Shown here piece after piece: positions 3,001 to 64,000 of a stretch of DNA of 64,000 nucleotides (within the stretch, counting starts at the first letter, position 1; every line of letters begins with the position of its first letter). The position numbers and the translations under genes were made by a program. The stretch covers positions 24,738,080 through 24,802,079 of the forward strand of contig NC_091929.1 of NCBI RefSeq assembly GCF_041260155.1. Direction: 5' to 3'. The notes under the pieces are model-generated. The model was not told the DNA's origin. It ran no database searches and saw only the letters and a list, made by a program, of their open reading frames with translations. Source of the DNA: Ptychodera flava (taxonomy: Eukaryota > Hemichordata > Enteropneusta > Ptychoderidae).

Positions 3001-3639
3001 ATAGAGGTGTTACTTGTAGTGTTTACTTCAGTCACTGTGTATATAGATATGATATTATTTGAACACTTGATTTTTTGTTAATGTAGTTACCAGGTCATGC
3101 AAGCGTGTTGGAAAGAGCAACGGGAGGAAAGACCCACCTTTTCTGATATATGCTTGACGGTTGGGCAATTAGCCAATGACGGCGCACAGGTATGGCAACA
3201 GCTGCGTTTGTTGGTTGATGGTTGCAGTGTTTTTTCTTTAATGAATGTAACAACTTGTAACTGTATCGTCAATAAATCTCACTAACATTAGCTCTCTGAA
3301 TCAACTGTCAGGTACATTGCTCTTACTCTTATATGACTTTGTTTTCTTCTTTTTATGTGGCGAAACAATTCATAAAGTTGGTCTTAATGATCATGCACTT
3401 TTATTTATTATTTGGCATTCTTATTCATACATCCATTTTCTCGTTACGTTCAAAGTACCAGTGTTATCAATAGTTATCGTTTCATTTCAACTTCTCCAAA
3501 GTCCCACCGATGTATATGTGATGATAATTTCATGTGTTTTCGTTAATAGGATCATCTGACCATGGAAGATTTTGACGATCGTGACTATGTAAATATACAT
3601 GTCTTACCAGGTAACTGGTCTCAAGATGAAAGAATATGA
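1..3639 (+). CDS. Receptor tyrosine kinase gene A, 3' part (kinase domain and C-tail)
   Basis: Exons by reading frame and GT-AG sites: <1-46, 438-684, 856-969, 1625-1809, 1986-2108, 2291-2402, 2771-2867, 3087-3189, 3550-3639 (TGA stop). All phases join without a break. The ectodomain and membrane helix lie left of the window. The product is a membrane receptor kinase that phosphorylates tyrosines in the cytoplasm. Visible: Gly loop GRGEFG, beta-3 AVK lysine, alpha-C Glu (FLRELNIMK), catalytic loop [18 protein letters not shown] in place of the usual [16 protein letters not shown] and the closing RPTFSDIC block. The family is closest by eye to RET/Tie/FGFR/VEGFR kinases. Oddities: HRD is HKD, and the activation loop has Phe (NDNFIERR) where relatives have Tyr. 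A kinase-insert YENI and tail YVNI fit the Grb2-type pYxN consensus. All other catalytic residues are present, so activity is likely but unproven. Confidence 0.93.
438..684 (+). CDS. Gene A exon: juxtamembrane end and kinase N-lobe
   Basis: Phase 0 start after TTCCAG, phase 1 end at AAAG|GTGAG. It encodes an acidic linker (starting SKETCIDEE) and then the ATP-binding Gly loop and the AVKCLK lysine strand. The first exon of the window (1-46) ends in phase 0 and joins it in frame. Genes B (27045-27282) and D (58579-58813) have an equivalent exon with the same phases and a Cys near its start, and this comparison fixed the exon starts in those genes. Confidence 0.9.
1986..2108 (+). CDS. Gene A exon: catalytic loop and DFG, with HKD variant
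   Basis: A 123-nt, phase 0-0 exon encoding [10 protein letters not shown] through [19 protein letters not shown]. The catalytic Asp and the Mg-binding Asn are present. The HRD arginine, which normally contacts the phosphorylated activation loop, is Lys. The loop has no Tyr; Phe stands at the equivalent place. The exons at 28142-28264 (gene B) and 53561-53683 (gene D) have exactly the same length. Confidence 0.92.
3550..3639 (+). CDS. Gene A last exon: short C-tail with YVNI
   Basis: Starts after TTAATAG in phase 0 and encodes 29 residues ending DERI before TGA. The tail holds [10 protein letters not shown]; Tyr-Val-Asn fits the Grb2 SH2 ligand pYxN. The last exons of genes B and D align with it ([18 protein letters not shown]), which supports the exon despite its small size. 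Confidence 0.88.
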   Translation, partial: DHLTMEDFDDRDYVNIHVLPGNWSQDERI

Positions 3640-15267: not shown

Positions 15268-15355
15268 ATGAATATTACTTCATCCATTATAGTGCTTCTA
15301 GTCACCCTCTTCAATTTTGGTAAATTATCAGATGAAGGATGTCCTACCGATAGAG
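15268..15355 (+). CDS. Gene B exon 1: signal peptide
   Basis: ATG at 15268 opens [18 protein letters not shown], a short polar start followed by a hydrophobic core, then [11 protein letters not shown]. It ends in phase 1 at GAG|GTAAGT, matching the phase of the next exon at 21853. Gene C begins with a similar signal-peptide exon that ends in the same phase after Cys-containing residues, which supports this start. Confidence 0.82.
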
Positions 15356-21300: not shown

Positions 21301-24300
21301 GACCATTTGCCCTCCTGACGTCGGGCAAATGGTCACCTACCCTGGGGCACATAGTCCCATGTTTGGGCTATAATATATAATATCAAATATACGAGCATTA
21401 AGGTTAAAGATTATGTTCTTTCTGTTTCTGTTTTTAGCATCTATGTGTTTCTTCCTCTCTCTTTTGTCTTTATTTTGTTACTGGTGTTACCTTTGGCGCT
21501 TAAACAATTGTATGTGACGGGTAATGCCATCAAATATCTAAACCAAATCGGAAATAGAAAGTAACATTATTTATTGTGCAAAGCTAGACAAAAACCTGGG
21601 GCAAAGCCCTTTGGTCGCCACCGTCAACTTGTAAAACACCATTCCGTGTTTTAATTCTTAAAATTCGACTTCTTACATAGATAACATGAATTTAAAATAT
21701 GGTTATATATTTTGTAACAGACCAAGTTCAATGCTGTGGATAAAAGTAATTTCATATACCTATATGGAAGTTTATCGAATGATCGCAATTTGTGGATGTT
21801 TGAACACCGTATCTAAGATATTTGTAACATTTCTGCAAATTTATTGGAATAGGCCCTCAAGTAAATGATGGAACGATTATACTAGCTGTCAATGAAGACA
21901 TTGCAGCACCAGCAGGGACAGCTGTCATACTTAACAGCGGTGTTAAGTTGGGCGAAACCAAAAATATTTGCATCGAGTTTACCCCTCAAAACGGTAAGTC
22001 TTTTACGACGAAAGCGTAGGCAAATAATTGGTGAATCAGAAGCGAGTTTCAAACACTTGTAATCTTAAAATCAGTGACTAGATATCCTAAGCATAAGAAA
22101 AACGAATAATGATGAAAGGGACCCCCCAAAAAGAAATAACTGACATTCCTCGGATACACAGTGTAGTATAATATTCACAAATAACCAACAATTTTGATCT
22201 TATGTTTTATCATATTTACACCTACTCGTGCTAAATCACGTTTGGAACAGCGTAGATGATACTTCTTATTAGCTACATTTACTTGCATCAATCTTATAAT
22301 GTCAAAGTATATACGTCATTGAATTCAAATATGTTTGATAAACTGTTCCTCTTTATAATTAAGATATTATTTTTGTTTAATTTTACGCAAGCATGTGAGA
22401 AACTGTAAAATCTTCTTATATGAATAACAAACGTTACATCAGGTACTCTAATTTACATATCCGAAATTTGTGAAAATTATAACAGCTTCAAATGTATCAC
22501 ATGTAATGAGACACTCAAACTTAAAAGTAACATATCCTCAACAATACTAGTATTGTATTTTGTGACATTCATCTAGGTGTTCCTGAATCGATAGACTGTT
22601 CGGGTAATTCTGGTGACAATAAATACTCACAGCTATCATTGCTTAGTATTGACGATTTCTGGGTGCTAATGATCGAAGAACTAAGAACAATGGAAGACAA
22701 AGCAGTGTTAACATGGTGGTCAGCTGATAAGGGTAGATTTGCTGAGACCATGGTAACAGTGCTAAGTAAGTAAAGTGTGACGAAGCCCGTCATGTGACCG
22801 TAACGCACGTACGAAGCAGGCCATTCCGCCTCAGCAAGTTAATGATCCATTCATAATGAAATCTTATCATTCGAACGACTCTTAAGTAATGTCTTGTGCA
22901 TAGGTTTGACATATTTACAAATGTTAACTCAACGTCTTCATGACAATACGTTGTAAGATTTCTACACCTTCTGTGATTAAATATAGTCCATTAAGCATTG
23001 ACAGAGATAGACACAGAATATTTAAACGATTAGCAGAATATGAAATAAAAATTGAAAAAGGGCCAAACTCACCTCTACCGAGAGGTAGAAAGCATGCCGC
23101 ATGAATAAATCAAATTGTTGGAATAGGTGCCGAAATTCGTTCTCACTTTGAACTACATACTCAAAGTAGTAGAAACACTATGGTCGATCTCTTGTCGATC
23201 AGTGATTTCACACCAACGTCAGACGCAAACTAATTCTTTACAAGACTGAGATGGCAAAGGTTATAATCCAATCGTTAAGTGTTTACTGTTCACCTTTTCT
23301 ATACAGACTATAAAGAGCGCTTAAGCTTTGTTTTTATCGCAACTCATGCACTGATCACATGTTCAGTGGCAGCGTAATGATCACGCATCTGAAAGGTGAC
23401 ACCAGTCACAAGGCAGTATTCGGAAATTGCACTTTGGAACATTCCTATATTATAGACTGTGAGGCTTATCACAGACTTCAAAGCTATTGAGGCAATGTAT
23501 AGTGTTTACTCAGTTCAGCAAGCCATGTGAGGTCGTGTTAAAGACCACTAAGGTTATTGTTTATTACAAATATTTGAATTATTTACGCTATTTCCATCGG
23601 CCGCCATAAGCTTACAGCATATAACTAGAACACGATCGTTTTCTTTCGTTTGATAATTTTGAGCACGCGTATCTTCTTTTTTTTTTCAAAAATCACCGGC
23701 AACACTAGTTAGCCCTTATCTTTTGTCATGTACTTTAATAACTCGATATTCACTGCTCTATCAGTTTAAAATGGATCGGGAAAACGTTCATGTACACTGA
23801 TTTGTTATGTCGTTGCTATGAAGTATCAACGTGAACCAATGACATACATTAACAAAGATTGACGATTTTCATGTGTTTGACAATTACCAAGTGGCCATAT
23901 TTAGTTTTTTTTTGTTTGCATCCGTAAATACATCACGACCAACTTTTGCCTTGAAACTTTGTCTTAAAATACATTTTATGACAAAATAAAAAGGACAATG
24001 GCAGAACGTAATATTATTTTGCCCACGCTAGCAAAGCGAAACACCACTGCAATACTGTATTTGGTGTTAAATCTTGGAAGTGTATGCTTCATTCTAACGA
24101 TTGTTCACTGAAAAAATACCGTACACTTATAACAAATAGAAATTAAAGCAGACCATTAGTTAATAGTGGATACATTTGCTAAACCATCGTTTATGAAATG
24201 GTTAAGTTCATTGATAGCAGACGTAAAAAAGGCATGTCAGGTAATTAATGGATATTGCAGCTCTATTTGTATGTCCGTACATGGAAGCAAAGAATTTCAT

Positions 24301-26687
24301 CATGTCATTTCTTGCTAGAACCGCGTTTCTGTCATTTTTCCCTTACAAGAATAAGTAACTCCGGAATTTTCTCTGGTTGTTTTATATTACTCAGATGAAG
24401 GAAGCAAACACGATGAAAACAATCATATCTATGTGAACGGACGGAAGGGTAGAACTATGCAACTTGTCTTCGATTTCAGCCCACAGCCAGTTGATGTTAG
24501 TCTCGTTGGATCGAACGACGACGATGTTTATAACTATCAATTCCAGACGTCATCAGAATCACGATGTTGGTCTAAAGGAGGAAACATTTCCCCTTCGTTT
24601 GCCGGACAATTTTACATGACAACGTTTAAAGATATCGACTTTACTATGCGTGATGAGTATACTTTCGCCGTGACTATACCCGACTATACAGAAGCTGTCA
24701 AGAAAAGAATCGTATTTGAGGTCCAAGGTAATTCAACTCTTATGCAATATAAACAACCCGATTAATTCGATGGAGATTGTTTAGTATTCTAACAAAGTAA
24801 TGTATTTCAAAGATGCTTTCTTTCCATTATTTTCAACCTCAGTTTCTCTTCAAAAGGTGCATGATAATTTCGAAACCAAACTGAGTTATTTTTGTTTTTT
24901 AGATATTAAAACCACCCCATCCTATACTTCTGACACAAGTGCTTTTGAAAAAACTGTTACTGAGACGACCCCATCTTATACTACTGGTACAAGGGGTAGT
25001 AGGACTAGAACACAGTACGATACCGGTAAGTTGTGCTTGCATGGTAACAAAGTGCGTACTTTTAGAAGCCAATTGGTGCTCTTGTCCTTCAGAAATTTAT
25101 AGGTATTATGTCAAGAAATATCTCTGTTGCACAATGATATGATTTGTGACTTCTTGGAAAAAAGACATATTTTGGCCCTCCATTTATGGAATGTTAAATA
25201 GAAAACGAGATATTCAGTCGATTATCCATGAAATTCCCCCTTCTTTATTTTCTAAGGTTTGTGTAGATATTTTATGGCAGCAGAATCGGATAAATAATGA
25301 GCTTTTGGGAAGCCACATCAAAAGATCTCGATAATTTATTTCAACCTCAGAAACATAGAAGACGTACACCTTTACTATAATGTCATGGTGATATTGATTC
25401 AAATATGCAAATTAACATTCACCAAGATTTGTTGGATCTGATAACTCTGAATAAAAACCAGATTTATACGTGTTTTTACATTAAAGGAGTCTCACAACCA
25501 AAGTCTACTGTCGCTACATCGACAATCGGTCCACAGAGAAATATATCGACAGTTGAACACAGCCATACAAATATTATCGACCAGAATTTTCACGGTAGGC
25601 GAAATCACCTATCTCACAATGCAAACAAGAAACATTGGCAAATGAATCTATTTCATGATATGTATTCTGATTTTACCTCAACTATCTGTCGGACATTGTT
25701 CCGAAACAGTATCCTTCATTTATATGTAGGGATTCTTATACCAACTTCCAGCTTGCTACATATTGTAAGTTAAGTTTCAAAACACTTATTCAGCATTAAT
25801 TTTTCGCCAATATAAAATGATTTTACGTACATTCTTCGTAAAGAAATATAATAGACGTATGACAAGTTCTAAGACTCACTGAATATCAGAGGTAAGGGGC
25901 AGCTTCATTAAGATAATCAAACGATCATGTCGATGATTAGAGAATGAACTTTTCAAGGTTTGAACCCTTGCAAAGAATGTAGCCTTGTCAAATTTTATCA
26001 TTGCAACTAAGAACATGACACATTCTTCTCTGCGCATTATAGATATACAAACTATAACAACTGTTAGTTCTATTGTCAATACTCAACAAATGACTTCCGA
26101 TGGACCACAAGGAAAGATAGGTATACTGCAAGGTAAGCTCTGAAATAATGGAAAATCATCCAAGTTTATCTTGAATATGAGTCATATCCTATGAATAACC
26201 TATTTGAAGAAGTTTAAGACACGTGCACGTAATTTTCTATTTACGCTTGAAATGAAAATTTGACAGAGGAGATACCTGTAATTTCATGTAATATGTGATT
26301 ATTTCGAAAGAACAACATACACTGCGATAACTATGATAAGGGACCCTTTGTAATCACGTTATGTCCCTCTATGTTGGTAATTAATGGAATGTAAATGACG
26401 TTGTACAAATATTAATCGCATTGCATATTCAAATTTCAATTGCTGCTTTCTTATTTTGATTAGTTACAGGCATATTGCCACCTAAGTCAGTAATACCAGA
26501 CGATGACAGAAGCTCTCTGCTTTATGTACTTTTATTTGTAAGCGGTATGTTAGTTGTATTAGCAGCTAATGGAATAATTTATGTCATCATTCGAAAAAGA
26601 AGAGGTACACATTCCGATGATATGTCCGAAGATGTCGAAGAAAGAGATGAGGTAATATTTCATTCCATCAATTATATAATTTCTTGC

Positions 26688-26752
<65 letters not shown>

Positions 26753-26756
26753 AGCG

Positions 26757-26798
<42 letters not shown>

Positions 26799-29700
26799 AA
26801 ACTGTCTCTTTTGACTACTTGAATTCTAACATTTTTCACAGGTTTCACAAGAATCGACTGATGTTTCTTATTCCTCATCAACGGAGGAGGATTTCGGTGT
26901 GCCAGAACAATTTTTTAATTCAGGAAACGTAAGTAAAAGTATAAATTGGATTTTAGCTTATATCATCGTAGATTCTGAAAATTTAAATGCTACGATTAAA
27001 ACGTCCGCCATCTCTTTACTGGTTTTGTATTCTTTTGACTGGAGGGAACTCTTGGCTGCCCAGATTCGACAGATATGCCAGACACTGTAGAGCCTTTAAT
27101 GACATACTATACGCAGTATTCAGAACCGTTCAGCAAGGCGAATGAATTCCAGTACAGTCAGCTTCAGTTCCCCAGTGATGACATCCTTGGACGTGGAGAA
27201 TTTGGCCTCGTTAGGAAAGCATATGTAACAAATGTGTATGACATGTCTGGAGAAAGTGAGGTAGCTGTGAAGAGTCTCAAAGGTAAGAAATCGATTGTTT
27301 GGATAATATGTCTTTTATAATGTATTTTCTTGAGTAAGTCTCAATTTGTGAAGGGTCACATATTGTAGTAAATATTAGTATCCTAAATATAGACAGTTGG
27401 AGACCTATGATATGTTCTGATACGCTGTAACTCATCAATAATAAGGACTTTAACCTTCTCATTGCATTTGCGTTGGTCTTGCAGAGAAGGCGTCTATAGG
27501 TGATCGAGAAAATTTTCTTCTGGAATTAAATGCCATGAAAACATTACAATCAGGTCACCCTAATGTCGTAAAACTAATTGGTTTCTGTACTGCACAGGGT
27601 AAGTCAATTTCGCGATCTTATTATGTTGATTCATGATGAAACAAGTAAAAATACTGTAACATAGGATGAAAAAGTCAGATGTGTCATAATTATAATCTTG
27701 CGCGAAATTAACCACTTTTTGAGACTTAAAGCCTTCTAGTGTTTGAGAATAAGTAAATGAACTAATATTTGTTGTTAAATTATGCAGATCCCATCTGCAT
27801 CATCGTCGAGTTTGCACCGTATGGAAGTCTTCACGATTATCTCATGAAAAACAGAGCCACAGAATCCTACGAAAACATAATTCCTAACAGTCGAGACTTG
27901 ACATCTCGTGACCTTCTGCAGTTTGCTTGGCAAATCGCTCGAGGAATGAGTTTCATCGCGTCTAGAAAGGTAAATAGTTTATAACCGTTTACATTGAACA
28001 ATGAAACATTCAGAATTGTGTACAAATTCCATAATTACCGAAGCTTAATGGATCTTCAATAAATTTCATTTTTCTCTCAGAGTGCTGAAATCAAACTGTT
28101 ATGTCCTACTGTATCAATGTGTTTCCCTTTATAATAAACAGTGTATCCACAGAGATTTGGCAGCAAGAAATATTCTTCTAGGAAAAGACAGATGCTGTAA
28201 GATTTCAGACTTCGGTTTTGCAAGACAAGGCAATGACAGTTTTGTACAGCGACCTGCAGCGCAGGTAAGAAACAAAAGGCAAGGTCACAATATGTTAAGA
28301 AACCAAAAATTGTCAATTTTGAACGACGTGTTTCACAAGTTTGCACTGTCTAACACAAACAGAAGATCAAAATGTAAACGTTTAAAGTATTAGAAATGCA
28401 TAAAATAGCATGCGCTTATCATTTCAGACGCGTTTACCGATAAGATGGATGGCTTTAGAGTCATTGGTATTCTCAATATACACTACAGAGAGTGATGTTT
28501 GGTCGTACGGTGTCGTTCTGTGGGAAATAGTTACACTTGGTAAGTTCTTGGTAATTTCTATTCTTATATAATGATAGTATGTATCGATAGTCATACAGAA
28601 GCAAGCAAACAAAGCAAGACGTTGAAGTGCAAATTCTCCCATGTGATTTTGCTTTATACGTGTGATTGTGGTTTATACTGAGATATATTTTTTTCTAAAA
28701 TGCGACAATCAGTGGTTATTGACCATGTGTCATCTTTTACAATAAGTGATACTCAGGGGTTATTACCTATTATTAAACAATATTATCTGTCGTACAGGAC
28801 AAAATCGAGTGTCTGACGCAGCACAAATAACACTCACCAGCCTGATACGACACAGGAACAGGCGCAATAACTTATTTATCATATAACACGATTGGAATTA
28901 ATTTGGGATAATTGGATTTTCAAATTTGTCAAATTTTCTCAAAAATGTTAGGTGCCGTATAGCTGAATGTTGCGATATTACAAATTACTCATAAAAACAA
29001 GTGTGAAACTTTTAAAAAAAGCAGATGAGCTTACATTTGCAGATCAAATAGACATAACTTCATCATCCAATTATCCCAAATTAGTTCCAATCGTGTTATA
29101 ATTCAAAATCAAGAATTTTACAAATAAAAGGAAAAACTTTAAATTTGGTAGACCGTAGAAAACACCGTAATTTAAACTCCCTTTATTTGTCAGCCTCAAC
29201 ACCTTATGGGAAATGGCAAGCATCAGAGGTGGTTCGTAAAATTAAAGATGGTTACCGGTTACCAAAGCCGAATCACTGCAGCAATACATTGTGAGTAAAT
29301 ACGTTACCATGTAGATGATCAAAGTTTGAACTGTGTATTTCGTGCTTTCAGTTTAATATTAATTCATAGTCCTTTAATTCACGAGAATCATCATATGATA
29401 TACAATGTAAGTTAATCCTTTGCTACTCTTTTATTTGTATGCATCATTTGTAGTTACCAAGTCATGAAAAATTGTTGGCAACAGAAACCCAAGGAAAGAC
29501 CAACGTTCTCTGACATCTGTTCGACGGTGGGAAATATCGCCGATGATGATTCGCAGGTATATGAAATGCTTAACTTGGGTTTCGATCTTGTTCAGCAGAA
29601 ACATTATTTGATTTTATGCAAAAGTTATATATCCAGAGATGGCTTTCGTGTTCTTTAGTCTCTCCTATTGTCATATATACACATAGATTACATCAACAAC

Positions 29701-29833
29701 AATTTTGCTATGTAAAATCCTGCTGACCCCGAGTCATTCTCTTTAACAGGATTACTTGAGCATGGAGGAGTTTGATGATCGCCTTTATGAGAACATAAGT
29801 CCTGAGGAGTGGCCTTCGGATGAGAGACTCTAA
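15268..29833 (+). CDS. Receptor tyrosine kinase gene B, complete
   Basis: Seventeen exons: 15268-15355, 21853-21993, 22577-22765, 24395-24727, 24903-25025, 25487-25594, 26043-26132, 26464-26651, 26842-26928, 27045-27282, 27485-27598, 27788-27969, 28142-28264, 28428-28539, 29194-29290, 29454-29556, 29750-29833. They sum to 2400 nt, 799 residues plus TAA, with every phase agreeing. Order: signal peptide; an ectodomain block of unrecognised fold (about 30-250) shared with gene C; Thr/Ser-rich stalk (about 251-357); membrane helix (about 376-398); juxtamembrane; tyrosine kinase with GRGEFG near 498, AVK lysine, HRDLAARN near 630, DFG near 650; short tail with YENI. Oddities: DFGFAR in place of DFGLAR, and activation-loop Phe (NDSFVQR) in place of Tyr. 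Likely a surface receptor; the ligand is unknown. Intron 1 contains an antisense LTR retrotransposon. Confidence 0.92.
15695..16264 (-). repeat. LTR (3' LTR in element orientation)
   Basis: Near-identical partner of 20634-21209. It is bounded by the inverted TGTTA/TAACA ends, next to the purine-rich tract on its inner side and the ACCT duplication on its outer side. Confidence 0.95.
20612..20629 (-). other. Primer-binding site, proline-tRNA type
   Basis: The minus strand reads TGGGGGCTCGTCCGGGAG, which differs only in the last base from the proline-tRNA primer site known from murine leukaemia virus. Its place just inside the 5' LTR fits the role. Confidence 0.8.
20634..21209 (-). repeat. LTR (5' LTR in element orientation)
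   Basis: Partner of 15695-16264. The inner edge is 4 nt from the primer-binding site at 20612-20629, and the outer edge meets ACCT at 21210-21213. Confidence 0.95.
21261..21373. repeat. Short foldback element, about 52-bp arms
   Basis: Near-perfect hairpin beginning TTATAGCCCAAACATGGG and ending with its reverse complement. The arms run through GACCATTTGCCC to a loop of only about ten bases. This is typical of a snap-back MITE. It lies about 50 bp beyond the LTR element in intron 1 of gene B. No other copy was seen in the window. Confidence 0.88.
21853..24727 (+). CDS. Gene B exons 2-4: ectodomain block shared with gene C
   Basis: Three phase 1-1 exons (21853-21993, 22577-22765, 24395-24727). 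Each has a counterpart in gene C: residues NEDIAAPAG with NICIEF against NEDVVVPET with NICVNE; a [13 protein letters not shown] segment against TWWSLDTGWLGDT; and DVYNYQF with a following Cys against the same string. I do not recognise the fold. The third exon has the length of an Ig-like or beta-sandwich domain but lacks the usual Cys-Trp-Tyr-x-Cys pattern. Confidence 0.88.
22766..24394. other. Gene B intron 3
   Basis: 1.6 kb without recognisable repeats or exons. Confidence 0.5.
24903..26132 (+). CDS. Gene B exons 5-7: Thr/Ser-rich stalk
   Basis: Exons 24903-25025, 25487-25594 and 26043-26132, all phase 1-1, so any of them can be skipped without a frameshift. The first carries an internal repeat (TTPSYTSDT, then TTPSYTTGT). 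The composition suits an O-glycosylated stalk holding the ectodomain away from the membrane. Gene D has short stalk exons at the same place (61344-61427, 60307-60375). Confidence 0.8.
26464..26651 (+). CDS. Gene B exon 8: transmembrane helix
   Basis: Encodes [19 protein letters not shown] followed by IIYVII and the stop-transfer cluster RKRR, then an acidic cytoplasmic stretch. It starts in phase 1 and ends in phase 0 at GAG|GTAATA. Length (188 nt) and phases equal those of the gene D membrane exon (59789-59976). A long GA microsatellite begins about 40 nt after its donor site. Confidence 0.92.
26693..26797. repeat. (GA)n microsatellite in gene B intron 8
   Basis: Two GA runs split by ACCGGAGCGAGAG, starting about 40 nt after the donor of the membrane exon and ending about 45 nt before the next exon. 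The intron is only 190 nt, so repeat length changes could affect splicing of this step. Confidence 0.95.
27045..28264 (+). CDS. Gene B exons 10-13: kinase N-lobe to DFG
   Basis: Exons 27045-27282, 27485-27598, 27788-27969, 28142-28264. The first was placed with the acceptor CTGGAG at 27039-27044 because only this keeps phase 0 with the preceding exon; the AGs at 27062-27063 and 27071-27072 do not. The result aligns with genes A and D, including a Cys near the exon start. Visible: GRGEFG, AVKSLK, alpha-C Glu, gatekeeper Val in [11 protein letters not shown], kinase insert with [20 protein letters not shown]. Confidence 0.9.
28884..29098. mobile_element. TA-flanked MITE, copy 1 (215 bp)
   Basis: Ends are inverted repeats beginning TAACACGATTGGAA, about 33 bp each, flanked by TA on both sides (28882-28883, 29099-29100). 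The interior closely matches copy 3 (58121-58329). There is no coding capacity. TA duplication and size fit a non-autonomous element of the Tc1/mariner type; the transposase source is not in the window. It sits in a gene B intron between kinase exons. Confidence 0.9.
29750..29833 (+). CDS. Gene B last exon: C-tail with YENI
   Basis: Begins after TTTAACAG and encodes [16 protein letters not shown] and a short end before TAA. Tyr-Glu-Asn fits the pYxN consensus of Grb2-type SH2 domains. A degenerate second copy of this exon follows directly at 29869. Confidence 0.9.
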   Translation, partial: DYLSMEEFDDRLYENISPEEWPSDERL

Positions 29834-29868
29834 AATATCGAACATTTATTTTTATAATTTTTCTTGCC

Positions 29869-31632: not shown

Positions 31633-34223
31633 AAAAGATACAATAAACAACCATCATGAACACAATGAAATATAAGATATGAATATTTGACTGAGTGTTT
31701 GAGTAACTGACAGACAGACTTATGAAATGGATGAATCTATTGATAAATTTATCTTACAGTAATTGACTGAACAACTAAAGACTAAATTCATATCTGTATT
31801 TCTAAATTGACAAAATGGTGACTGGTTGGTTGACTGACTGATTGACTGACTGACTGACAGTGAAATGAAGAAATGAAACAATGACATGAATAGAAAATTG
31901 CTGAAAGAAGATATGGAAGAATAACTTACTGGATGTCACACTAGAGACATAAATGTAAAATTGCCCGATAATAAAAGGTCCTTATTCTAAATTAATTCTA
32001 TCAAAACTCTAGTCTGAAATGCATAGGGATGAAGATGTAAAGGCAGGTTGGTTGGGTCATTTATAACTTTTCAATGCCAAATGTATAGATGTTACGTTTG
32101 GGGGAGTTTGAAAAAAGTGATGAGCAAACATCAATACAGCGGGTTGAATCATCGTTCATCTGCCTTTAAGGTTGGTGTTATTTAATATTTTAGATGCATT
32201 TATGCAGTCAAACCGGTGTGAAATCAAAATAAAATACCACACACGGCATTAAAATGTTCTCTCTTTGCATATCATGATTAATCACTGTCAAGGTTATTCA
32301 TCGTTAATTTTGGTGCATGCGTCAATATGTAATAAAACAATCGATTGTTTTCTCACACTTATTGATGAAAGACATCTTCTAAAATATGTTGAATTTTTTC
32401 ATATTATACACAAACGTATTTCATATATAAAAGGCAAGTTACCGACGCAATATAAGTTACATTTATTAGGGTAATTCACGTTTCTAGATTCAAGATGCAA
32501 CAGTAAAATACTGACATTTGTTATTAGTAGACGTAAGGGAAGATTTTATTTTTTCTAGCCATAATGAGGTGTTTTTTCTGGGTAAAGTTTAATCCAGGTG
32601 GCGGTATTCAGAGAATATATAGATCTGTTAATGTAAAATGATATCAATATTTCACAAACTCTAGGACCTTGGGGTAAGATTTTGACATGCTTGAGGGCGC
32701 AGCTCGGAGGAAGGGGCTTAAAAGCATCTACCGAATTTAGTCTGCATATTAGTTTGCAATACGTCAGGGTAAAGGAATTTTGAAGTTTACATCACGTCAT
32801 TTAATAACACAGAGCGTAAATCAAAAACTGTGAAGGTCTAGCTACCTTACATACTTACCTCTAAAGGTCAAGCAGCTGCGTCTTCTAATCGTGGAATGTT
32901 TATTCATTGTTCGCATATTTCAGTTGGCTAAGATTATTTCTACCGAAGCTTATTTATTTAATGACAGACCATCTTCTGTGAGCATATCAGAAGCGTACAC
33001 AGTTACAATTGCATCAAAACAAATCATAAGGGAACTTTCGTAAAATACCAAATATGGTTCCCCAAGTAAGTATTACTGTCAGGTCGAAAGCAGAACAGAA
33101 CTTGTAATATACATAATAAACAAAGCGGCACTTTGCACAATTGACAGCACATGCATATTATGATTGTGAAAACATAATGTAAGATCCTTTTTCGAAAACA
33201 GCTGACATTTGTCTCATTAAGTGGTGATGTCATTTCGGCGCATGTCCAACTCTGCCAAAGGTAAAATGTCAATGTGGCTGGTGGTAGAAACCGAGTAAAC
33301 GTTGAATATATGTTTCCAAAAGTCCATTTTACACCTTTACCAACACAGAGAGTCAACATCTTAGGTGAAAATGTAACCTGTGCATAAAAAAACTGCAATT
33401 GCGTAAATTCAGTTTTAATGCCAAGGAGCAAACAGATATGCGTGACCACGTATAAAACTTGCTTTAGAATATTTAGTGTTTGATTGTACCAACATTAGAG
33501 TAATCGATTGCCGATGACTTGCGCAATGTGAAACTTTTAGAGCTACATTCAGGCAGATTAAGTTACCATAGCTGGTGGGCAATGTTGCGCTTTCGAAATA
33601 CAGCAAACAATTTTGCTATTGTCTCAAAGGTATTTAATCGGTCCTTTTATCCTTATACAGTGGGAGGTATTGTTGGACACGCATTTACATCCACTGGGAG
33701 ATGTTCAGGACATTTCAGTATTTTGTGAATAACCTTGTAATCATGCAAATTCTCTGTCGAATTAAATTTCAAAAATAAGCAGTGAAGGCAAACACATAAC
33801 AAAAACATGTTACTTTGCTGAAAACATAATAACAGATTTGAAGGGCAGCTGTTCAGACGTCTACAAATAAATCAGTATTGGATTGGCATGCACTATGTTA
33901 AATGTGAAGAGGTCAACAGGATAGCCTAGGTTATCATTTTGGAGTACATCCAACAGTTTCGATGGCGTAAACAGCAGTCTGAGATCAAGGACAAGCAAAC
34001 ACAAATAAATTTTGCCAATAATGTAGGTCTGTGTACTCTGGAAGCCACCGGACTAATGATTATAAATACAAAGTTTGGGCTTGCGGTGAGTTAACAAACT
34101 TTCTTGCCCAGTAACTATGGCCAACAGTAGCATATGATACGATTCTGCTCATGCTGAGACTGAGACAGACAATTAAGAAAGATGTTTTGAGACAGTGAGA
34201 AGCACAAATTACATAGTGATGCG

Positions 34224-34843
34224 TAAAAAAACTGATTGACCTGTAGACGATAACAAACCACTTTTCTTACTGAATGTTAATTTTCCGTTTGTGAAAGGGT
34301 CAAGATGATTATTTAGGATTAAACAAGTTCCCTCGTGTTGGTGCGTCTTAAAAAGACAGACCCGCTGATGAAACTGACCTGAAACAATGTTATAGCGAGG
34401 CAAGGATTAGTTGTGCAAAAGCTACTGGACGCAACCTAAAATTACGGACCATCTTCTATAGGCATGTTCAAGCGCATGGACTTCGTACAACTGAGTGTTG
34501 AATATTGCACTGAATACCCAAACACAATACCAAGAAACTAGCATAAACATATCAACAATCAATAGTCCAAGTAGCCCTGTTTGATCCACCAATAATGTAA
34601 AAACCTCTCTTACACACGATTGATTTAATGTTTTTAGCCAGATCTCACAAATAAAGTTAAATGCATATTGATTGGAAACAATTTAAAACTAGTGAATAAA
34701 GGGACTTTGTATTTTTAAGATGTACTAATACGAGGGAACTTATTTAATCCTAAATAGTGATCTTGACTCTTTCACAAAATGGATAATCAACATTAAATAG
34801 GACAAACGGATTGTTATCGCCTATAAGTCAATCAGTAAAAAAG
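34224..34843. repeat. Foldback element, about 130-bp arms
   Basis: The left arm at about 34224-34355 and the right arm at about 34711-34843 are inverted copies. Both contain ACTGATTGAC, GTGAAAG(G/A)GTCAAGAT and TATTTAGGATTAAA when read in the same sense. About 355 bp of unrelated sequence separates them. It has the form of a MITE and has no counterpart in the right duplication unit, so it may have inserted after the duplication. Confidence 0.75.
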
Positions 34844-37800
34844 CTACTGTAAGAATAAACGCGCATACTATTTGGGAAGTGTTTATTGAATCACTGGATC
34901 TTGAATTTACACGACTAAGATAAGTGGTACTGAAACTATTGGCTGTTATCCAAACAGATACCAATCTGCTTTTGGCTTCATGTCAAGCGTTCGTCAGAAT
35001 TTGTTTTGGTGAGTGGAGTATATTTGGCGCTCTGCGATCCCTATGTCAACAAATGCAAAACTCGTGACAATACCGTCAAAACAATTCGGCGATGCCCATA
35101 TAACTGTCAAATACCCAAAAGGTTGCAATAGTCAGCAACCCCAGGAGAACGAATGTATTGTCATCTATGTGACTCTGTAGTTTCATAGAACACTCCGACA
35201 TTGTTCGTCTTTTAGCTCCATTGTTTATTTAAGTGTACCAAATGGGCCTGATAAAATTGGCAAACTGCGTTATCACTTATCCATGGTACAAGCGTTAAGC
35301 GAGCAATGGTTGTAGAGAAAGAGCGAATACAATTCTTCAAACTTTTAGCCATGAATTTCCAAGAATGTGCGAGGGGAACTATTCTAGTCTGTGATCGAAA
35401 GTTTACATGGATTCTCCAATCCCGTTATAGACACTTTTACTAACCTACAAAACAACCAGAGTCCTGCCTTCCTTACATGGGATCATCAACTTATTTAACG
35501 AACGTTGGTTTGTTTCATGTAGTTGTGACGTTAAATCTTCGCACTTATCGCAGTCTCTCTAGCATACCAACAATAATGCGTTGAAAAGCGAAGACATAGA
35601 CATGCAGAGTTAAAAGGAGAGAAAGTTAAATGAAACATCACTGTGTACGGAGGACTGTGGACAAATAAACGAATTAGCCTGGATAGGTACTGTAATGAAC
35701 TCTACTCGTATTTATGTTTTGAGTTAACTGCGCAATTAGAAACTGTAGAGGTCAAACCAGGTAGCCGAGGTTATCGTATTAGGTGGGTATGGCTTATCAA
35801 TTTGGATAAGATCGAACATTGTCAACGTTGTTGTATATTACCTACAGTGAGAGATCAAAGGTCGATTTGACACACTTTAGCTAAAGTCTGATTATCATCA
35901 ATACTTGAAGTCAAAGGTATGTTTTACTCTGCCAACCAGCGAGTGTTAGTTAACTGTAGTGAGTCTAGTCAAAATTATCGTATTGATGATAAAAAATGAA
36001 GAATATATTGCGTAAATCAGAACAAGTAGTCAGGGAAAGCAATGCGTCGTTACTGACAAGTTTGATAATTGAGACATTTGGCCGATTGCCTTGTATTGGC
36101 AAAGTTTTAACATTGGCAAATATTATTAAACTGTTCGAGCTGCTGACTTCGGATTTCATTAGTCAGCAAGGATGATAACAATGTCATATTTACTGCAGTA
36201 ACTGTGTCAAAGAACACAGGACAGGACATCAATGAAGACGAATCACAATTTAGGTTTGAGTTAAATACGCATGAGAAACTGCAAAGGTCAAACCACGTAG
36301 CCGAGGTTATCGCACCTTATGGGTAGGCTTATCAGTTTGGCGAAGGTGCAGCATTGGTAATGTTGTTGTGCACTGCAAACAGCGAGAGACGGCTGCAAGC
36401 CGACCAGCGTTAGATGAATGTAATGCAACCAGTCAAAGATGGCGCATTTTCCATAAATAATGATTGCGTAATATAAGTGTAATCAGAAAAAAGTCCTATG
36501 TTCGTAGTTGAAAAAGAAAGCCATGTGTAACCACAGATAAGGTTATCATTAAGATGTGAGGGCTCAACTGTCTTGTAGAGGCAAGTTTTTAGGATGGACA
36601 TATCATATCAAAGTATTCAGGTTGCTGTCCTTTGATGTCAGAAGTGAGCAAGGTGTTGTAGAGATTCGAACACCTACTACAAAGAGAACGTTGACCTGTT
36701 TTGCAATACATCAATGGCGAGACAATGCCAGGTTTAATATCTAGTAAACATTAGGAGTATCGTGCCTTGGTCTGGACGAAATGTTTTGCCAGCAGACAAT
36801 TTGGTAAAAGAAGTCCTTAGTTGGACAGAGCATGCTGAAATTTAGGAAATGGAAAATTTTTAAAATCTTTTTTACAAACAAACCCTCACACATACATACA
36901 CAGAAGCCATTTTAGAAGCTTATGAGGACAATACAGCTGATAAAAAATACAATACAACGGTAAACATAATTAATAAACGCACAAAAATAAAATTACATTG
37001 TGGTTAGCGGCTGGTAACGTCTAGCCCAGCAACTATTGCTGAGTGACACTAACGAAGTGCGAGATCGAAAGTTAAAAACCATAAGAGGACCACGTCCGAC
37101 GTTCAGACAAAGCAGGGCAGAAAATCAAGCGGAAGAAACATGGGTGGGGGAGGTTGTGAATCGGCCAATGATTGCAATAAAGACTTGTTAAGCTTTAGCA
37201 AGTCTAAAACAATATGAGGAATAAAAAGCGAACATCGAATGACGATTAAGGAATGAAGCTAATGTCGTAAGCTTATAGTGATATATAAAGAGTGGAAATT
37301 AGAGTGATAACAACTTGAAGTCCCCAAGAATAGCCACTGTGTATAAGTTTTATAATTCCATTGTGTAAGAAACTGAGCACAAAAGTTGCCGTAACTTTGC
37401 GCACTATCTGACCATGTAAAATCATCCTCTTACATTACATATCTAACTAAGAGTAGGGTACAAGACAAATTTAAGTTCATTGACGTTTTTCAACTACATT
37501 CATACGCACACTAATGAATTCGACTGCATTTTGGCCATTTACTGAGAAGGCAGAAAGGTATGCATTTTCGAACCGGACGCAATTTATTTTAAGGTATAAT
37601 TCTATGAACAGAGATCACGAACGATAGCTAGGAAATTCCTAAGGTGCGAGAATTTACAGCCAACACATGTCAGTTCAATGGAACCGAAACAAATGAGACC
37701 ATCGAATTGTTATCGAAAAAAATAAGTATTGAATAGGACCAGCTCAACTTTATATTTGAAGATCAGTCAGGTAGGCAGCTGCCGTCTTAGACAAAAGGAC

Positions 37801-38343
37801 ATACCATTTGTGGAGTGTTTTCTTTGTGTATGAATGAAGTCATAATCTTAGCGAGTGACATTAAGTATGTTGGAACAATGGGACAAATTCAAAACTAATA
37901 AAACCGCTGGACTGGTTAATCTCGCACATTTGAAAACTTGGTGGAAGCCGAATCTATTGAGCTGAGAACAAGACATAGCAAGAAACGAAGAAAGACGGAT
38001 TAAAAATAGTTTCAAGGCAAACAGGTGATGCTAATACCTAACCCTTCTGCTTTGTTATTAAATACTGGTTGGTTGATGCCATATCGTGAATAAAGAAGTT
38101 GGTTTCGGTTTATGCCTTCTCACAAGTAGACCATTCACAATAAACAGAGATACCCCTTATCTAGACAATGCAAAACAGATTCGTTAGTTAGTACAAAGAA
38201 GAATCCCGCCGTTCTTGCGTCTTCAGTATAATGATAAGTCCGTGTTTTTACTCGGGTTCAAACGCACAATGCACTGCACTCGGTCACCTAGCGGAGAAAC
38301 CAAAGGCAAAGCCGCTCGGCCAAATCCCCAATCTCGAAAACTA

Positions 38344-38490
38344 GTGGTTCGTTCAAATTCTCTGCAATTTACATAAACATGATATTTATACTAGTATACG
38401 CCGAGATCATTCCTGGGTTAGTTTTGATGTTTTGAGGACCGATGACCGTCTCCTTCAGATGACTTTATGGTTTTATTCGGTCTATATTGG
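38344..38490 (-). pseudogene. Relic of the gene C Ig exon
   Basis: Reads along gene C exon 44243-44394 and into its upstream intron. Shared features: CAATATAGA at the acceptor, GGTCCTCAAAA and AATTTGAACG/GAATTTGAAAG near the end, followed on the left-unit side by the same AATG repeat. The frame is disrupted, the donor site is gone and no neighbouring exons are left, so it is dead. Confidence 0.78.
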
Positions 38491-38547
38491 AGAAGCATCA
38501 GCTCTCACGGTAAGCGGGTCGATAAATGGCTCACTTGAAGGAATAAA

Positions 38548-38640
38548 TGACGAATGAATGAATGAGTGAATGAATGAATGAATGAACGAATGGATGGATG
38601 AATGGATAAATAAAACTTGAATAACTAACTAACTAACTAA
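38548..38640. repeat. (AATG)n and (AACT)n tract
   Basis: Imperfect AATG units followed by five AACT units. It is the counterpart of the AATG tract at 44.5 kb in the duplicated unit. Confidence 0.85.
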
Positions 38641-38909
38641 TAAATATGACATTAAACTAGTCCAATAATCATTTCCATTCAAGGTAATATATTGCCAGGT
38701 CCATGGGACAATTGTGATTTACAAATTTAAGTAGGACCACCCTGAACCACTGATAGTTAGTGGAGGTACCAGGTGTCCGGAATGGGTAAGCATACCCTGC
38801 TAGCATGCTACACCCGTCAGGATTGGTCCCAAATTGTCTAAATATTGTATGAAAAGATACATTACATTACAACAACGTGTCAGTGTTACGAAAAAAGATG
38901 ACAGATTTG

Positions 38910-41912: not shown

Positions 41913-41916
41913 CCCT

Positions 41917-41970
41917 TCACAAGTCTAGCATTGGGTTGTCTTCACAGCGATAATTTTTCTTTCTGCTTTT
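41917..41970 (-). CDS. Gene C last exon: basic tail without kinase
   Basis: 54 nt, phase 0, after GTTGCAG: KSRKKNYRCEDNPMLDL and TGA. The fitting phase, the acceptor and the AATAAA right behind the stop make it a plausible terminal exon. It has no similarity to the juxtamembrane or kinase exons of the paralogues. It is short, so some doubt remains. Confidence 0.68.
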   Translation of the reverse strand, partial: KSRKKNYRCEDNPMLDL

Positions 41971-44900
41971 CTGCAACATGAAACAATGATAGTAAAAGGT
42001 GAGAACCGCAGTTAAAACAACATTAGGGTATGTTGTTGTTTTTATACCTACTGCTGGCACTATTTTCAAAGTTAATAAAACTCATACTAGGGTAAGATGA
42101 AGAAAAAACGCTTGGTAGTTCTAATACTCTATGATCTGTCATCATAATTGTCCCTCACATACATATCAGTGCGCATGTCAACTTCCTTACCTTCTTATTC
42201 CTGCATTTTACAGCGGCAAAGATTATCATCACAATTGTGCAAATAACAGCCATAGCGGCAATGAATTGAAGACCTATTGGTGTTTCAGCGGATTCGAAAT
42301 TCATCGTTTGGCCTGCAATCACAAAACATACGTCACTCTTTGCACGTATTTATCAGATAAAGATACACATATCAGCAAGGGCAAGAACGCCACAAATCAA
42401 TAAATATAGTTAGAGACGCACACACAGTAAAAAGGAAGAAAAACAATAAGACTTTAAGATCAGAGTTCGAATGAGAGTTAGAGTGAGAGTGAGGAATAAG
42501 TTAGAAAAGTTCAAGAAGACAAAATTAGAAGGTTCATACTGAACAATACACCTTTCCCTCGGAAACGTTCGGTTGTTGAGGATCAACTGACCTAAAAACA
42601 ACTTTTCTTAATATTATATCGGACCAAAATTTTCTAGGCCAAACCTGCATCAAACCCAAATGCCATTTTTTCCAATTTCAATATTAAATCTTTGTAATGG
42701 AATTATTAGGCATTGAATTTAGATAGCCAAAAGTCACCTAACTCGCTAACCAAACCTATTATTTACTTTTTGTCCCTTTTATATTGTTTGAATGTACGCC
42801 TGATGACATACGTGTGCTTGATTAGATAATGACAACGAACAAAATTGTTAAAGGTAATGTTCAATTTTACGACATTGCCACTACTTGGTCTTTTATCGAC
42901 TTGTTTGTTATAAGCAATGCGTTATAGAGCCGGTCACAGGCTAATTTACTTTAAGATGGTTTGTCTTTGCGAGCGCTGCTTCTAGTCCGAGATGATGTGA
43001 ACTGGATTTATGTTTAGCTTACATGTCTCGATGCGAGTTCAGTTATATATATTGTCGAGGTCAAAAGATCATAGATTTGATGATCATGCATATAATGACA
43101 TTGCTCACGACCAGAAATACATTAGAATAGAATCGATCATCATGTATATTAGTTTATTCAAGGAACATCAGTAATTTTTTATGTCGTGACATTTGTGTAA
43201 GTGCTTACCTTTTAAGGTAACGTACACATCTGAAGTTATCGTGATGTTCTCTGTTGTTCTAACACGACATTCGTAGAGCCCTGCATCGCCATATAGAAAA
43301 TGTAACACCCTGAGAGTAGAGGTGCCATTGTCCGTGTCGTTGATCATATATTTTCTATCAGTCTGAATGAATCGAGAAAAGGAGAATTAACACAATACCT
43401 CGTAAGTTGTAAAAGAAGTGATTAGTTACAAATTTGTCGTGATCAAAGAGAAAGCGTAGATTCTAAAAAGATATACGTGTTTCTGCTACTATAGCAAGAG
43501 AACTTTAAAACAAATTGACGATAATGAATTAAGTTATTTACATTGACCAGTTGATATGTAATTTGTTTGATAAATACTCTCTTTTGCAAAATCTATAAAA
43601 ACTTTCAAGTAAAATATAGTCATGTTCAGACGACTTCAGTTGTTTACCTTTAGCTCATGTCCCCGTAGAAACCAATGGGTTGATAGCAGCGAACCAGTTG
43701 CACTGCATAATAATTTGGCGGAGTTGACATACACAGTTGGTTGTTGCAATAATGACACTTGTACTCCATTTGTTTCTGAAACCGTTTTAAAATGGCATAA
43801 ATCTCTCTTCGAGAATATTTAAATCTCAAACCTTGGTATTAACTTTAATTATGGTAAAGTATTAGGTATACTTTACTTTTACTATCAGACCTGCCGATGG
43901 ATATCAACACTCCTCTTACTGTGAATATTTACCATACAGTACCCTTTAATGGTGTATCGAGAACTTTCAAATCGCACAATTAAATTATAATTTTTTTGAT
44001 GAAATAAACTCGGAGAATTATCATTTCTGCGTGCATTGTTTCAGGCAAAAATATTAGTTCCGCTAAAACACCATTGAATCAATTTGGTCATTTATTTTCA
44101 AAAGTACCACAATTGAATTTTTTTTATTTTCCTGAAATATTGGCAGTATGTGCACTCGTAGGAGGGACTTCTCTGACGTTGAACAATAAGAAAAGCTATC
44201 CGCTGTTTACAACATTATGGACTCCTGAATATACAAACTTACCTTTAATTGTTACATTGACCTCATAACTTTCAAATTCACTGCAATTTACGTAAACGTG
44301 GCACTTATATTCACCGAGATCATCTTGCGCAAAATCTGATATTTTGAGGACTGATGACTTTTCTCCGTCAATGAACTTTGTGGTTGTTATCGATCTATAT
44401 TGCAAAAAAAAACAAACAAACCAGTAGTGATCACGGTCAACAGATGGATGCAATGTTCGAGTTCATGAATGGATAAATGAAATAGATGGATGATATGAAC
44501 GAACGAAACGGATGAATGGATAAATGAAGGAAAGAACGAACGAACAGACGAATGAATGAATGAATGAATGAATGAATGAATGAATGAATGAATGAATGAA
44601 TGAATGAATGAATGAATGAATGAATGGGTGAATTGATGTATGAACTAACGAACGATCGATCGATCGAACAAACGAACAATTTAATGAACAAATGAATGAA
44701 TGAATGAATGAATGAATGAATGAATGAATGAATGATGAATGAATGAATGAATGAATGAATGAGCAAAGAGACAGAAGTTATTATTCAACCGGAATGGTTA
44801 TCAATGATCCCCTTTATCTTTAATGTTTTATCACCATCCTCATGTTACTAACATCTACATACTGCCCTTAAATTGATCGAACTCAAAATGGCGAGAAAGT

Positions 44901-47236
44901 TAATTCAAAGAATGCATTCAAAAATCTCATCATACCTGTAGTGCGTTTCCTTGGAATAGCCAATTAAATGATGAAACATCATTGGAAGCATTGCATTGCA
45001 ATTCTGTAAAATCTCCGAGTACAGACGGTTGATGGGAAATAGCTAAAGTCACACTTATATCCTCTGAAATATTGATAATAATGAGAGTGTAAGTCAGGTG
45101 AACTAGAAAGATCATAACTAATTACCCGATGTAATTGCTCAATTTTATCAAGTTTAGCATGTTTTATCAAACTGTATCAAAAACTGACGTACATTTTCAA
45201 TGTATCGTGTCGCATTTTGATGCAGAACGTTATACATTTTAAAGCAACTATTTCTAATTTCGAAGGTAGAGTTTTCAGACAGTACCTTGCAATTGGAGTT
45301 TCACAATCGCCTTTGTAACCGCGCTGGACTCATCTTCAAAAGTGGTAATTGCAAAAGTATACCAGTCGACTTCAGTGCAATCTAAGATCTCGAACGTCGT
45401 GATGTAGTATGGACCACCATATGTTGGATAGATGAACGGGTGGAAAGAAGAACACCTTGTCTGCTTTCCTGATATAAATTGGTAGTTGTACACGTCGACA
45501 GAATTTCCTTTAGTGAAGCTAACATCTTTATGAAGAGTTGTATCATGAGAAAACTTCAATATAATTGATAATGAACGACCTCTCCTCCCAGCAACAGGTA
45601 TCTCTAATGAAGTCTCTAAATTGTAAAAAAGTGATCGATATGATAAAGGTCATTTTCAGCACTTACTGAAGTGTATATATGTATCAATGAAATAGAAGCA
45701 TTAGGGTGGTTTTGTGTAGTAAAAAGGAAATGATAAATAAACTTATATAAAAATATTGGGATCATGAAGAAGAAACACAGTGACTTTTTTCCGTTTTTCA
45801 CAAGAAGGGTTCCATACTAAAATGTTGTTATGTTCTTATGTAGTACTGGTACGGATACGAGTAGTCTGACGTATCGTGACCTCCTTGCTCGGACTTGTTT
45901 GTCTGAGTATGAGTGTGGTAGGACTTTTTTTGTCAATTATTTATCAACGGAATTAGATGAGTGCACTATCAACAGGTATTAAGCTTTTTGTCTTTGTTCT
46001 GGGACTGGATACTGACCGTTCAGGGAAAATTCTGGTATTTGTAAATGAACTCTAAAGAAAATTGATACACGAGTCTATATGTATGATTTATTTCTTGTAG
46101 AACGCTTTCAATCAGTCCATCCTAATGTTACGGATATGCTGATTAAGCTCAAAGTTTGATTGAAATTGATGTACCTTGCAGTGATACTAATGTGTCCCCC
46201 AGCCAGCCAGTGTCTAATGACCACCATGTAAACAGAATCCTGTGGTCGCTTTCTTTTATTCCTTCAATATACAGCATTAAGTAGGCATCAACGTCTTGTA
46301 ATGACAACCGAGAGGAGCTAGCGTCAATAGAATCTGGATGGAACACCTCTGACAAACAGTATAATATATAGGAATTGCCTGCAGAACATGGAAAATAACA
46401 GAATGTTATTTAATACTTATAAGAACATATTTAAAAAATCTAGAACATAATTTTCCACATTTACTACGTGACTATAGGGCGTTTGATTGACAAAGCTTCA
46501 ACTGAAACATGCACTTCACGTGCATCAACTTTAGACTTTCCTTGAAAGCTTCTACTGTGAACAAAAGAATGGGTGTATCCAAGCCTTTTTAACAGAAGAT
46601 TGGAAACCATATCAAAGGCGATTACTTGTGAACGATCGATTGAATCTTACACTATGTTATATATCATCACGTCACCTCTCCAACAGACTTATCAATGCAT
46701 CTCGTGAATATTTTTATTTAAAGCTTACATAATTAATTGAGTAACTGCAGTGCTATTATAAAATTGCCTATTCTCGTTTTAAATATGCTTTTAACACATT
46801 AGCATTTCATCGTTTTATATACCATGGAGGCACAGACATATGTCTAAGTTTATGTAATTAAGAAGATGATTTTAAATGACTTCGTTTTACCTTTTCTCGT
46901 TTCGTTGACGCATATATTTTGACTATCCCTAATTTTCACATTGCTGTTTAACAGGAGACTTGTGGTTTCCGGTACCACGACATCCTCGTTGAAGGGTATG
47001 ATTATGGTAAATTTATCATCCAGAAAATGTGGCCCTGAAATAGAAAATGATAACGCTTTACATTCGTTAGAGTTATATGTTTTTCGTGATTGACGCAATG
47101 CTATTTATTGTCAACAGCTAAATTGACGTATTTTCGTCTTACCTTTTTGACGTTGGCATGGCTCTTCACAAGATGTTGGCACATTGCTAAAGATCGTGAT
47201 TAACGCCAGTAAAAGGAATTCGCATCCTTTCGCCAT
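41917..47236 (-). CDS. Kinase-less receptor gene C (Ig ectodomain, membrane helix, short tail)
   Basis: Exons in transcript order: 47236-47143, 47034-46891, 46348-46175, 45615-45286, 45063-44936, about 44394-44243, 43775-43648, 43362-43209, 42312-42191, 41970-41917 (TGA). About 493 residues: signal peptide MAKGCEFLLLALITIF; three blocks homologous to gene B exons 2-4; two Ig domains, each split over two exons with Cys-Trp then Tyr-x-Cys; membrane helix; tail KKKSRKKNYRCEDNPMLDL-stop. No kinase exons follow; AATAAA stands 4 nt after the stop. This suggests a decoy, co-receptor or adhesion role sharing gene B's ligand (inference). Oddity: the join 44936 to 44394 is out of frame with the only visible AG, so either the acceptor is unusual or the product is truncated after the first half of Ig domain 1. 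All other joins agree in phase. Confidence 0.85.
42191..42312 (-). CDS. Gene C exon 9: transmembrane helix
   Basis: Encodes GLQFIAAMAVICTIVMIIFA, a clean hydrophobic span, followed by AVKCRNKK. It starts in phase 1 and ends in phase 0, the same phases as the membrane exons of B and D, but it is shorter (122 against 188 nt). Confidence 0.9.
43209..45063 (-). CDS. Gene C exons 5-8: two immunoglobulin domains
   Basis: Each domain uses two exons. Domain 1: 45063-44936 (LQCNAS, then FNWLFQG) and about 44394-44243 (DLGEYKCHVYVN). Domain 2: 43775-43648 (LLCSATG, then HWFLRG) and 43362-43209 (DAGLYECRVR). The Cys, Trp and Tyr-x-Cys marks are complete in both. The two first-half exons are both 128 nt, so one domain probably arose by copying the other. 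Gene B lacks these domains. Confidence 0.88.
44470..44762. repeat. (AATG)n tract in gene C intron
   Basis: Two long runs of AATG (about 44551-44626 and 44692-44760), joined by GAAC and GATC variants, lie just upstream in transcript order of the exon 44394-44243 whose acceptor is unusual. They produce a false His/Ser/Ile/Phe-rich frame on the minus strand. Confidence 0.93.
47143..47236 (-). CDS. Gene C exon 1: signal peptide
   Basis: ATG at 47236 opens MAKGCEFLLLALITIF and continues SNVPTSCEEPCQRQK. It ends in phase 1 at AAAAG|GTAAG, as does the gene B signal exon. The hydrophobic core and the following Cys residues support secretion to the surface. Confidence 0.86.

Positions 47237-52292: not shown

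Positions 52293-64000
<11,708 letters not shown>

Follow-up and report, generated by a model that had tools for sequence, protein, structure and literature searches.

Introduction

Can a gene that stands among receptor tyrosine kinase (RTK) genes, and that has part of its extracellular region in common with one of them, encode a working receptor without any kinase? The question is raised by a stretch of 64,000 nucleotides from the hemichordate Ptychodera flava (contig NC_091929.1, positions 24,738,080 to 24,802,079; hereafter the window), in which three RTK genes, here called A, B and D, accompany a fourth gene, C. An original prediction, made from the letters of the sequence, had read gene C as a kinase-less membrane receptor sharing its ectodomain with gene B, and had offered a decoy or co-receptor role for it. 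Our analysis indicates that gene C is, as predicted from its exons, a kinase-less membrane receptor with a conserved extracellular module common to it and the neighbouring kinase receptor. To say that it shares its ectodomain overstates the case, for B and C are unlike in their membrane-proximal halves. A decoy or co-receptor role for the predicted protein appears plausible.

Results

Gene C consists of ten exons on the minus strand (47236-41917), all with GT-AG borders, and its coordinates and anatomy turned out to have been given exactly (Table 1). The best 19-residue hydropathy near the start, in exon 1, is 1.54. Two stretches of the protein match Pfam Ig_3 (E=2e-12), a membrane helix with mean hydropathy 2.91 occupies residues 455-473, and the intracellular tail is a basic stretch of 23 residues without a kinase, ending at an in-frame stop with AATAAA starting 4 nucleotides past it. 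The two immunoglobulin (Ig) domains, the helix and the short basic tail had all been foreseen. The minus strand of the window carries 84 copies of AATAAA, about 0.0013 per nucleotide, and we estimate that one would lie so near the gene C stop by chance in about 1% of cases.

Acceptors were scored with a matrix trained on 40 of the 43 acceptors of genes A-D (those of gene C exons 6 and 10 and gene B exon 3 were left out) and ranked against 921 nearby AG sites. The exon 10 acceptor scores 9.45, above 98.8% of these sites, and the exon 9 donor is strong at 11.26. Exons 1-5 and 7-9 (432 codons) have good splice sites and contain no stop, with 24.4 expected at the local rate, a count that overstates the case since the exons had been picked as open. 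The best explanation, offered tentatively as part of the endocytic-decoy reading set out below, is that gene C is genuine and under selection, and that it encodes a single-pass membrane receptor within an RTK cluster.

Table 1. Gene C, its neighbours and nearby repeats, in window positions with strand
Feature	Position	Strand	Content
Gene C exon 1	47143..47236	-	start codon, signal peptide, Cys-containing N-terminus; ends in phase 1
Gene C exon 2	46891..47034	-	first exon of shared block; homology to gene B
Gene C exon 3	46175..46378	-	second exon of shared block; homology to gene B
Gene C exon 4	45286..45615	-	third exon of shared block, ~110 residues; homology to gene B
Gene C exon 5	44936..45063	-	Ig domain 1, first half; Pfam Ig_3
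Gene C exon 6	44243..44394	-	Ig domain 1, second half; acceptors before 44394 (strong, off-frame) and 44375 (weak, in-frame)
Gene C exon 7	43648..43775	-	Ig domain 2, first half; Pfam
Gene C exon 8	43209..43362	-	Ig domain 2, second half; Pfam
Gene C exon 9	42191..42312	-	membrane helix (FIAAMAVICTIVMIIFAAV); phase 1 to 0, as in membrane exons of genes B and D
Gene C exon 10	41917..41970	-	end of tail (KSRKKNYRCEDNPMLDL) and stop
Gene B	15268..29833	+	17 exons, 797 residues: signal, block, Ser/Thr-rich stalk, membrane helix, RET/TIE/FGFR-like kinase
Gene D	52293..64000	-	5' end beyond window; kinase down to stop at 52293
Gene D Ig domain	63658-64000	-	single exon at window edge
Gene D membrane exon	59976-59789	-	
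Gene D juxtamembrane mini-exon	59365-59303	-	
Gene A	1..3639	+	5' end beyond window; kinase exons 438-3639
Partial tandem copy of gene C 3' half and downstream flank	33879..38645	-	alignment with 38916-44557
Gypsy-type long terminal repeat retrotransposon	15694..21209	-	in intron 1 of gene B; its repeat pair gauges assembly errors

The exons that follow the signal exon tie gene C to gene B. Judged against 500 shuffles per comparison, as were all exon comparisons of C with B or D, exon 2 matches 21855-21992 of gene B with 19/45 identical residues (score 91.5, best shuffle 30, z 12.6), exon 3 matches 22543-22764 with 24/67 (score 111, best shuffle 23, z 13.8) and exon 4 matches 24397-24726 with 44/104 (score 175, best shuffle 17.5, z 19.7), bearing out the three-exon block that had been proposed. 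Over the whole block, which is 226 residues long, 87 of 216 aligned residues are identical (~40%). At codon positions 1, 2 and 3 we count 117, 142 and 73 identities among the 216 codons (54, 66 and 34%), and because position 3 is near saturation while position 2 has been kept, the two blocks appear to be under constraint at the protein level. Three of the 24 identities in the exon 3 match fall upstream of 22577, the sole usable acceptor of gene B there.

That part of gene B is itself irregular. The homologous start of its exon 3 lacks an AG, and if splicing uses the in-frame acceptor at 22577 (score 3.17), 11 residues are lost. An open stretch nearby, at 22442 on the plus strand, is a possible extra exon; the acceptor there scores -16, for a tested border that could be off by a base or two.

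Beyond the block we looked for resemblance at both ends of the protein. The signal exons of C and B, described earlier as the same, are alike in position and phase, but not in sequence, their alignment score of 17.5 (z 3.2) lying below the 18.5 that the best of the 500 shuffles reached. For the membrane exons, C against B gives 6.0, just over the best shuffle at 5.5, and C against D gives 14.5, below a best shuffle of 24.0; any similarity here is unconvincing because hydrophobic residues dominate. Exon 10 gave nothing above shuffles against the juxtamembrane exons of B or D, and we reject homology between them. Of the ectodomain said to be common to both genes, the N-terminal block thus stands and the rest does not: where gene C has its Ig domains, gene B has a stalk of three Ser/Thr-rich exons (24903-26132) with 37 serines and threonines in 106 residues, and outside its kinase Pfam gives no match at all up to E=1, whether Ig or cadherin-like. 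Since the signal exons and tails do no better than shuffles and the membrane-proximal halves differ, what C and B have in common is an outer block and not a whole ectodomain.

The block itself drew no match from Pfam up to E=10 (with filters that drop most matches above 0.1), from NCBIfam up to E=1 (a weak test, as this library is prokaryotic) or from a profile search of PDB sequences up to E=10. A search of viral contigs for relatives of exon 4 returned 36 pattern matches, none of which was confirmed.

Does a kinase lie anywhere behind gene C? A profile built from the kinases of genes A, B and D was run unfiltered against 2895 open stretches of at least 15 residues between stops, on both strands. 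Of the 25 rows below E=0.1, 24 are the kinase exons of the three genes (24/24), and the remaining one is the last exon of gene B, partially repeated; as the profile was made from those same exons, this recovery proves only that single exons can be detected. Between B and C, at 30.5-41.9 kilobases (kb), the best row on either strand reaches E=4.8, in agreement with the original prediction that no kinase exon lies there. The best remaining row anywhere (E=0.81, plus strand) falls within an intron of gene C.

The neighbouring genes form a related set. B and C are convergent, 12,084 nucleotides apart from stop to stop, and D and C stand in tandem. The kinases are identical at 211/284 (A and B), 175/283 (A and D) and 176/283 (B and D) aligned residues. 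That of gene B is complete (Pfam PF07714, E=8e-90), with the catalytic motifs VAVK, HRD and DFG present; in gene A, HKD replaces HRD at 1986-2108 on the plus strand and DFG is kept. Directly behind the gene B stop, at 29824-29925 on the plus strand, lies the partial repeat of its last coding exon (E=0.014 with the kinase profile). For the kinases of B and D the top PDB chain with a single kinase is RET (255 and 259 bits), followed by TIE2 and FGFR1; an apparent top match to EGFR (9p9u) was discarded as spurious, since that chain carries the kinase twice, at 158 bits each. A phase-2 intron precedes FYQVM in gene B and FQVM in gene D, a position that presumably corresponds to helix alpha-H. One passage of PMC8662651 places a phase-2 intron at that helix in the long-DE clade of RTKs, and another describes organism-specific tyrosine kinase families in sponges, nematodes and choanoflagellates; because such families exist elsewhere, a private RTK cluster is not strange in itself.

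In gene D, whose model is incomplete from the Ig domain to the membrane exon, the mini-exon donor (gtagat, 2.84) is the weakest of the 41 scored, and read-through would meet an in-frame stop after two codons. The membrane exon, mini-exon and kinase exon join in phase 0. On these features gene D may yield a kinase-less form, or its mini-exon may be skipped. Further off, an open stretch at 10196-10321 on the plus strand, starting MEEQGSLSYVRLFLLTVFASLF and followed by GTTAGT, resembles the signal-peptide exon of a further gene. Rfam gave no matches in the window at gathering scores.

Two repeats complete the picture. The partial tandem copy (33879-38645) holds a decayed exon 6 at 38352-38481, but we found none of exons 7-10 in this copy. 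The Gypsy-type element has an integrase match and a gag stretch resembling SCAN, and several breaks are apparent in its reading frames. Its integrase seems to stand before the RNase H-like end, the order of Gmr1-like elements.

Discussion

What might such a receptor do? We tentatively propose, at somewhat less than an even chance, that gene C encodes an RTK paralogue which has no kinase and works as a decoy that sequesters ligand and is probably endocytic. Its block would bind the same class of ligand as that of gene B, without signalling; the protein would keep ligand off B, or join B in non-productive complexes, and clathrin adaptors would clear it by way of an acidic-dileucine-like motif, EDNPML, in its tail. 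A decoy of this kind would have a ligand-binding module in common with a signalling receptor, and gene C has the block in common with gene B at ~40% identity, its ligand binding being putative. The phases of its membrane exon, the same as in B and D, favour its belonging to the RTK cluster.

The tail motif resembles NEQLPML of the major histocompatibility complex (MHC) class II invariant chain, with an acidic residue followed by xxPML in both; this is a likeness of short motifs, relaxed from the strict consensus, and not homology. Passages of PMC2882754 treat [D/E]xxxL[L/I] signals as a motif class, and those of PMC8620429 report preferential binding of NEQLPML to AP-1 and AP-2. Motifs as relaxed as this turn up in 3.2% of 20,000 shuffled tails, and the gene C tail lacks the strict form, so EDNPML is a lead only.

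A precedent had been sought in FGFRL1 (FGFR5), which is likewise a single-pass kin of a kinase receptor with a short intracellular part and no kinase past its membrane helix. According to passages of PMC12026108, FGFRL1 was first taken as a decoy and is rapidly internalised, with a dileucine peptide among the conserved motifs of its tail; it has about 100 intracellular residues and a histidine-rich C-terminus (PMC12026108, PMC2806250, in the passages concerned). The differences are considerable. FGFRL1 has three Ig domains, in contrast to the two Ig domains and unrelated block of gene C; the 23-residue tail of gene C contains no histidine; and the kinases of its cluster are closest to RET and not to FGFR. 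Among the best 60 of 71 PDB matches, moreover, the Ig domains of gene C are closest to titin, NCAM2 and CEACAM1, the best FGFR1 match having E=0.04. We therefore reject gene C as FGFRL1 on its two Ig stretches, the lack of an FGFR-type Ig match and its short tail without histidine. The precedent survives as an analogy: FGFRL1 is the nearest functional analogue of gene C and not a relative, and the two kinase losses look independent. Nor can gene B be equated with RET. Its kinase is RET-like in sequence, but no cadherin-like domain is found in its ectodomain (Pfam up to E=1), which has the block and the Ser/Thr-rich stalk instead. The arrangement of C and B is not described among the literature matches on receptors that were listed, which falls short of establishing novelty in print.

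Several points weigh against the endocytic decoy, and the gravest lies in exon 6, where the original prediction missed a slip of frame. The acceptor at 44394 is strong (score 10.27, above 99.2% of the 921 AG sites), and its use shifts the frame of the first Ig domain (Ig1) by one nucleotide, giving a product of 308 residues that ends in IDNNHKVH and a stop within Ig1. The in-frame acceptors inside the exon, at 44375 (-8.23), 44357 (-4.16), 44303 (0.37) and 44261 (-0.69), reach at most 0.37. That at 44375 is the only one to preserve the whole second half of Ig1 and has the worst score, below 98% of AG sites; the other three lose more of that half. The intron upstream of exon 6 holds no in-frame open acceptor, and exon 5 has no useful alternative donor downstream, as a TGA closes the frame one codon past it. 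To these must be added that the tail contains no strict [D/E]xxxL[L/I] match, that identity in the block is just ~40%, and that the sharing of a ligand by B and C is putative. A low acceptor score is by itself not decisive: in gene B, homology places the exon 2 acceptor at a site scoring -2.89.

How could a slip of one nucleotide arise in a gene whose other exons look kept? Most likely it is an uncorrected indel in the assembly, as we infer from the nearby retrotransposon. Natural sequence divergence consists mostly of substitutions. The two long terminal repeats (LTRs) of the element (15694-16264 and 20633-21209) differ, over 580 aligned columns, by a single mismatch as against 7 gap openings, and because the pair differs almost by indels alone, the assembly probably contains indel-type read errors that were left uncorrected, at least in repeats. 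This argument has limits of its own: LTRs, being repeats, may be assembled worse than unique exons, and the exons of the four genes show just one or two such flaws. Against an assembly error in an otherwise kept gene stand also a (CATT)n tract close by and the partial tandem copy, whose exon 6 is plainly decayed. The decayed exon 6 gives a weak hint that the ancestor may have been in frame, its acceptor lying 48 nucleotides from a common GTCCTC as against 49 in gene C (counted on the sequences). The length of this copy is weak evidence, because it carries further indels of its own. The other source of the slip would be a real lesion in exon 6, which we consider less likely.

Of the readings that compete with the endocytic decoy, which we rank first, the most serious, though we judge it unlikely, makes gene C an adhesion or recognition receptor in its own right, whose block reached it by shuffling between genes and has since taken on another binding partner. 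The unlike membrane-proximal halves of B and C speak for it, as do Ig domains that best match titin, NCAM2 and CEACAM1 and not an RTK, and an exon 10 that compares with the juxtamembrane exons of B and D no better than shuffles do. Circumstantially, the place of gene C inside a cluster of related RTKs, the same intron phases of its membrane exon and the score of that exon against its counterpart in B (6.0, best of 500 shuffles 5.5) argue for kinship with its neighbours instead.

Ranking third, and more doubtful still, is that gene C has recently been disabled, the slip being real and the locus turning into a pseudogene, as has happened to the decayed copy that lies 6 kb downstream. Both the strong out-of-frame acceptor of exon 6 and the adjoining decayed duplicate are consistent with such a fate, but the remaining exons are open with good splice sites, and the nearby LTRs, differing almost by indels alone, offer another origin for the slip. 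It is improbable that the slip is real and yet useful, yielding either a secreted soluble decoy of 308 residues or, via 44375, a receptor of 496 residues whose Ig1 is shortened. The assembled sequence allows either product to be read, and weak acceptors can be real, as in gene B exon 2 (-2.89); but 44375 scores below 98% of AG sites, and the stop that ends the 308-residue form is followed by four exon junctions. A stop upstream of exon junctions is expected to trigger mRNA decay, and because this one precedes four of them such decay is to be expected for the 308-residue form. Least probable of all is an ordinary RTK whose transcripts run on into kinase exons elsewhere: the strong exon 9 donor (11.26) would permit it, but the profile scan, by which we rejected such joins, finds no kinase exon on either strand at 30.5-41.9 kb, gene B, which holds the nearest kinase further downstream, runs on the other strand, and a strong exon 10 acceptor leads to a stop with AATAAA behind it.

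Returning to the endocytic decoy, we may carry it one step further, to a picture that is rather unlikely as a whole. A lineage-specific RTK family, built on a module outside the searched libraries, would have evolved its own endocytic kinase-less decoy within the cluster, independently of FGFRL1, and gene D may make a similar form by alternative processing.

The value of the gene C observation hangs on a single base-level question. If the frame slip is real, gene C is a freshly disabled receptor, which would be ordinary. If gene C is functional, the block common to C and B would be an undescribed ligand-binding module, and the cluster would unite in one place an active receptor, a decoy and a partial copy that has decayed. 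More generally, a functional gene C would mean that RTK clusters repeatedly give rise, locally, to decoy paralogues without a kinase.

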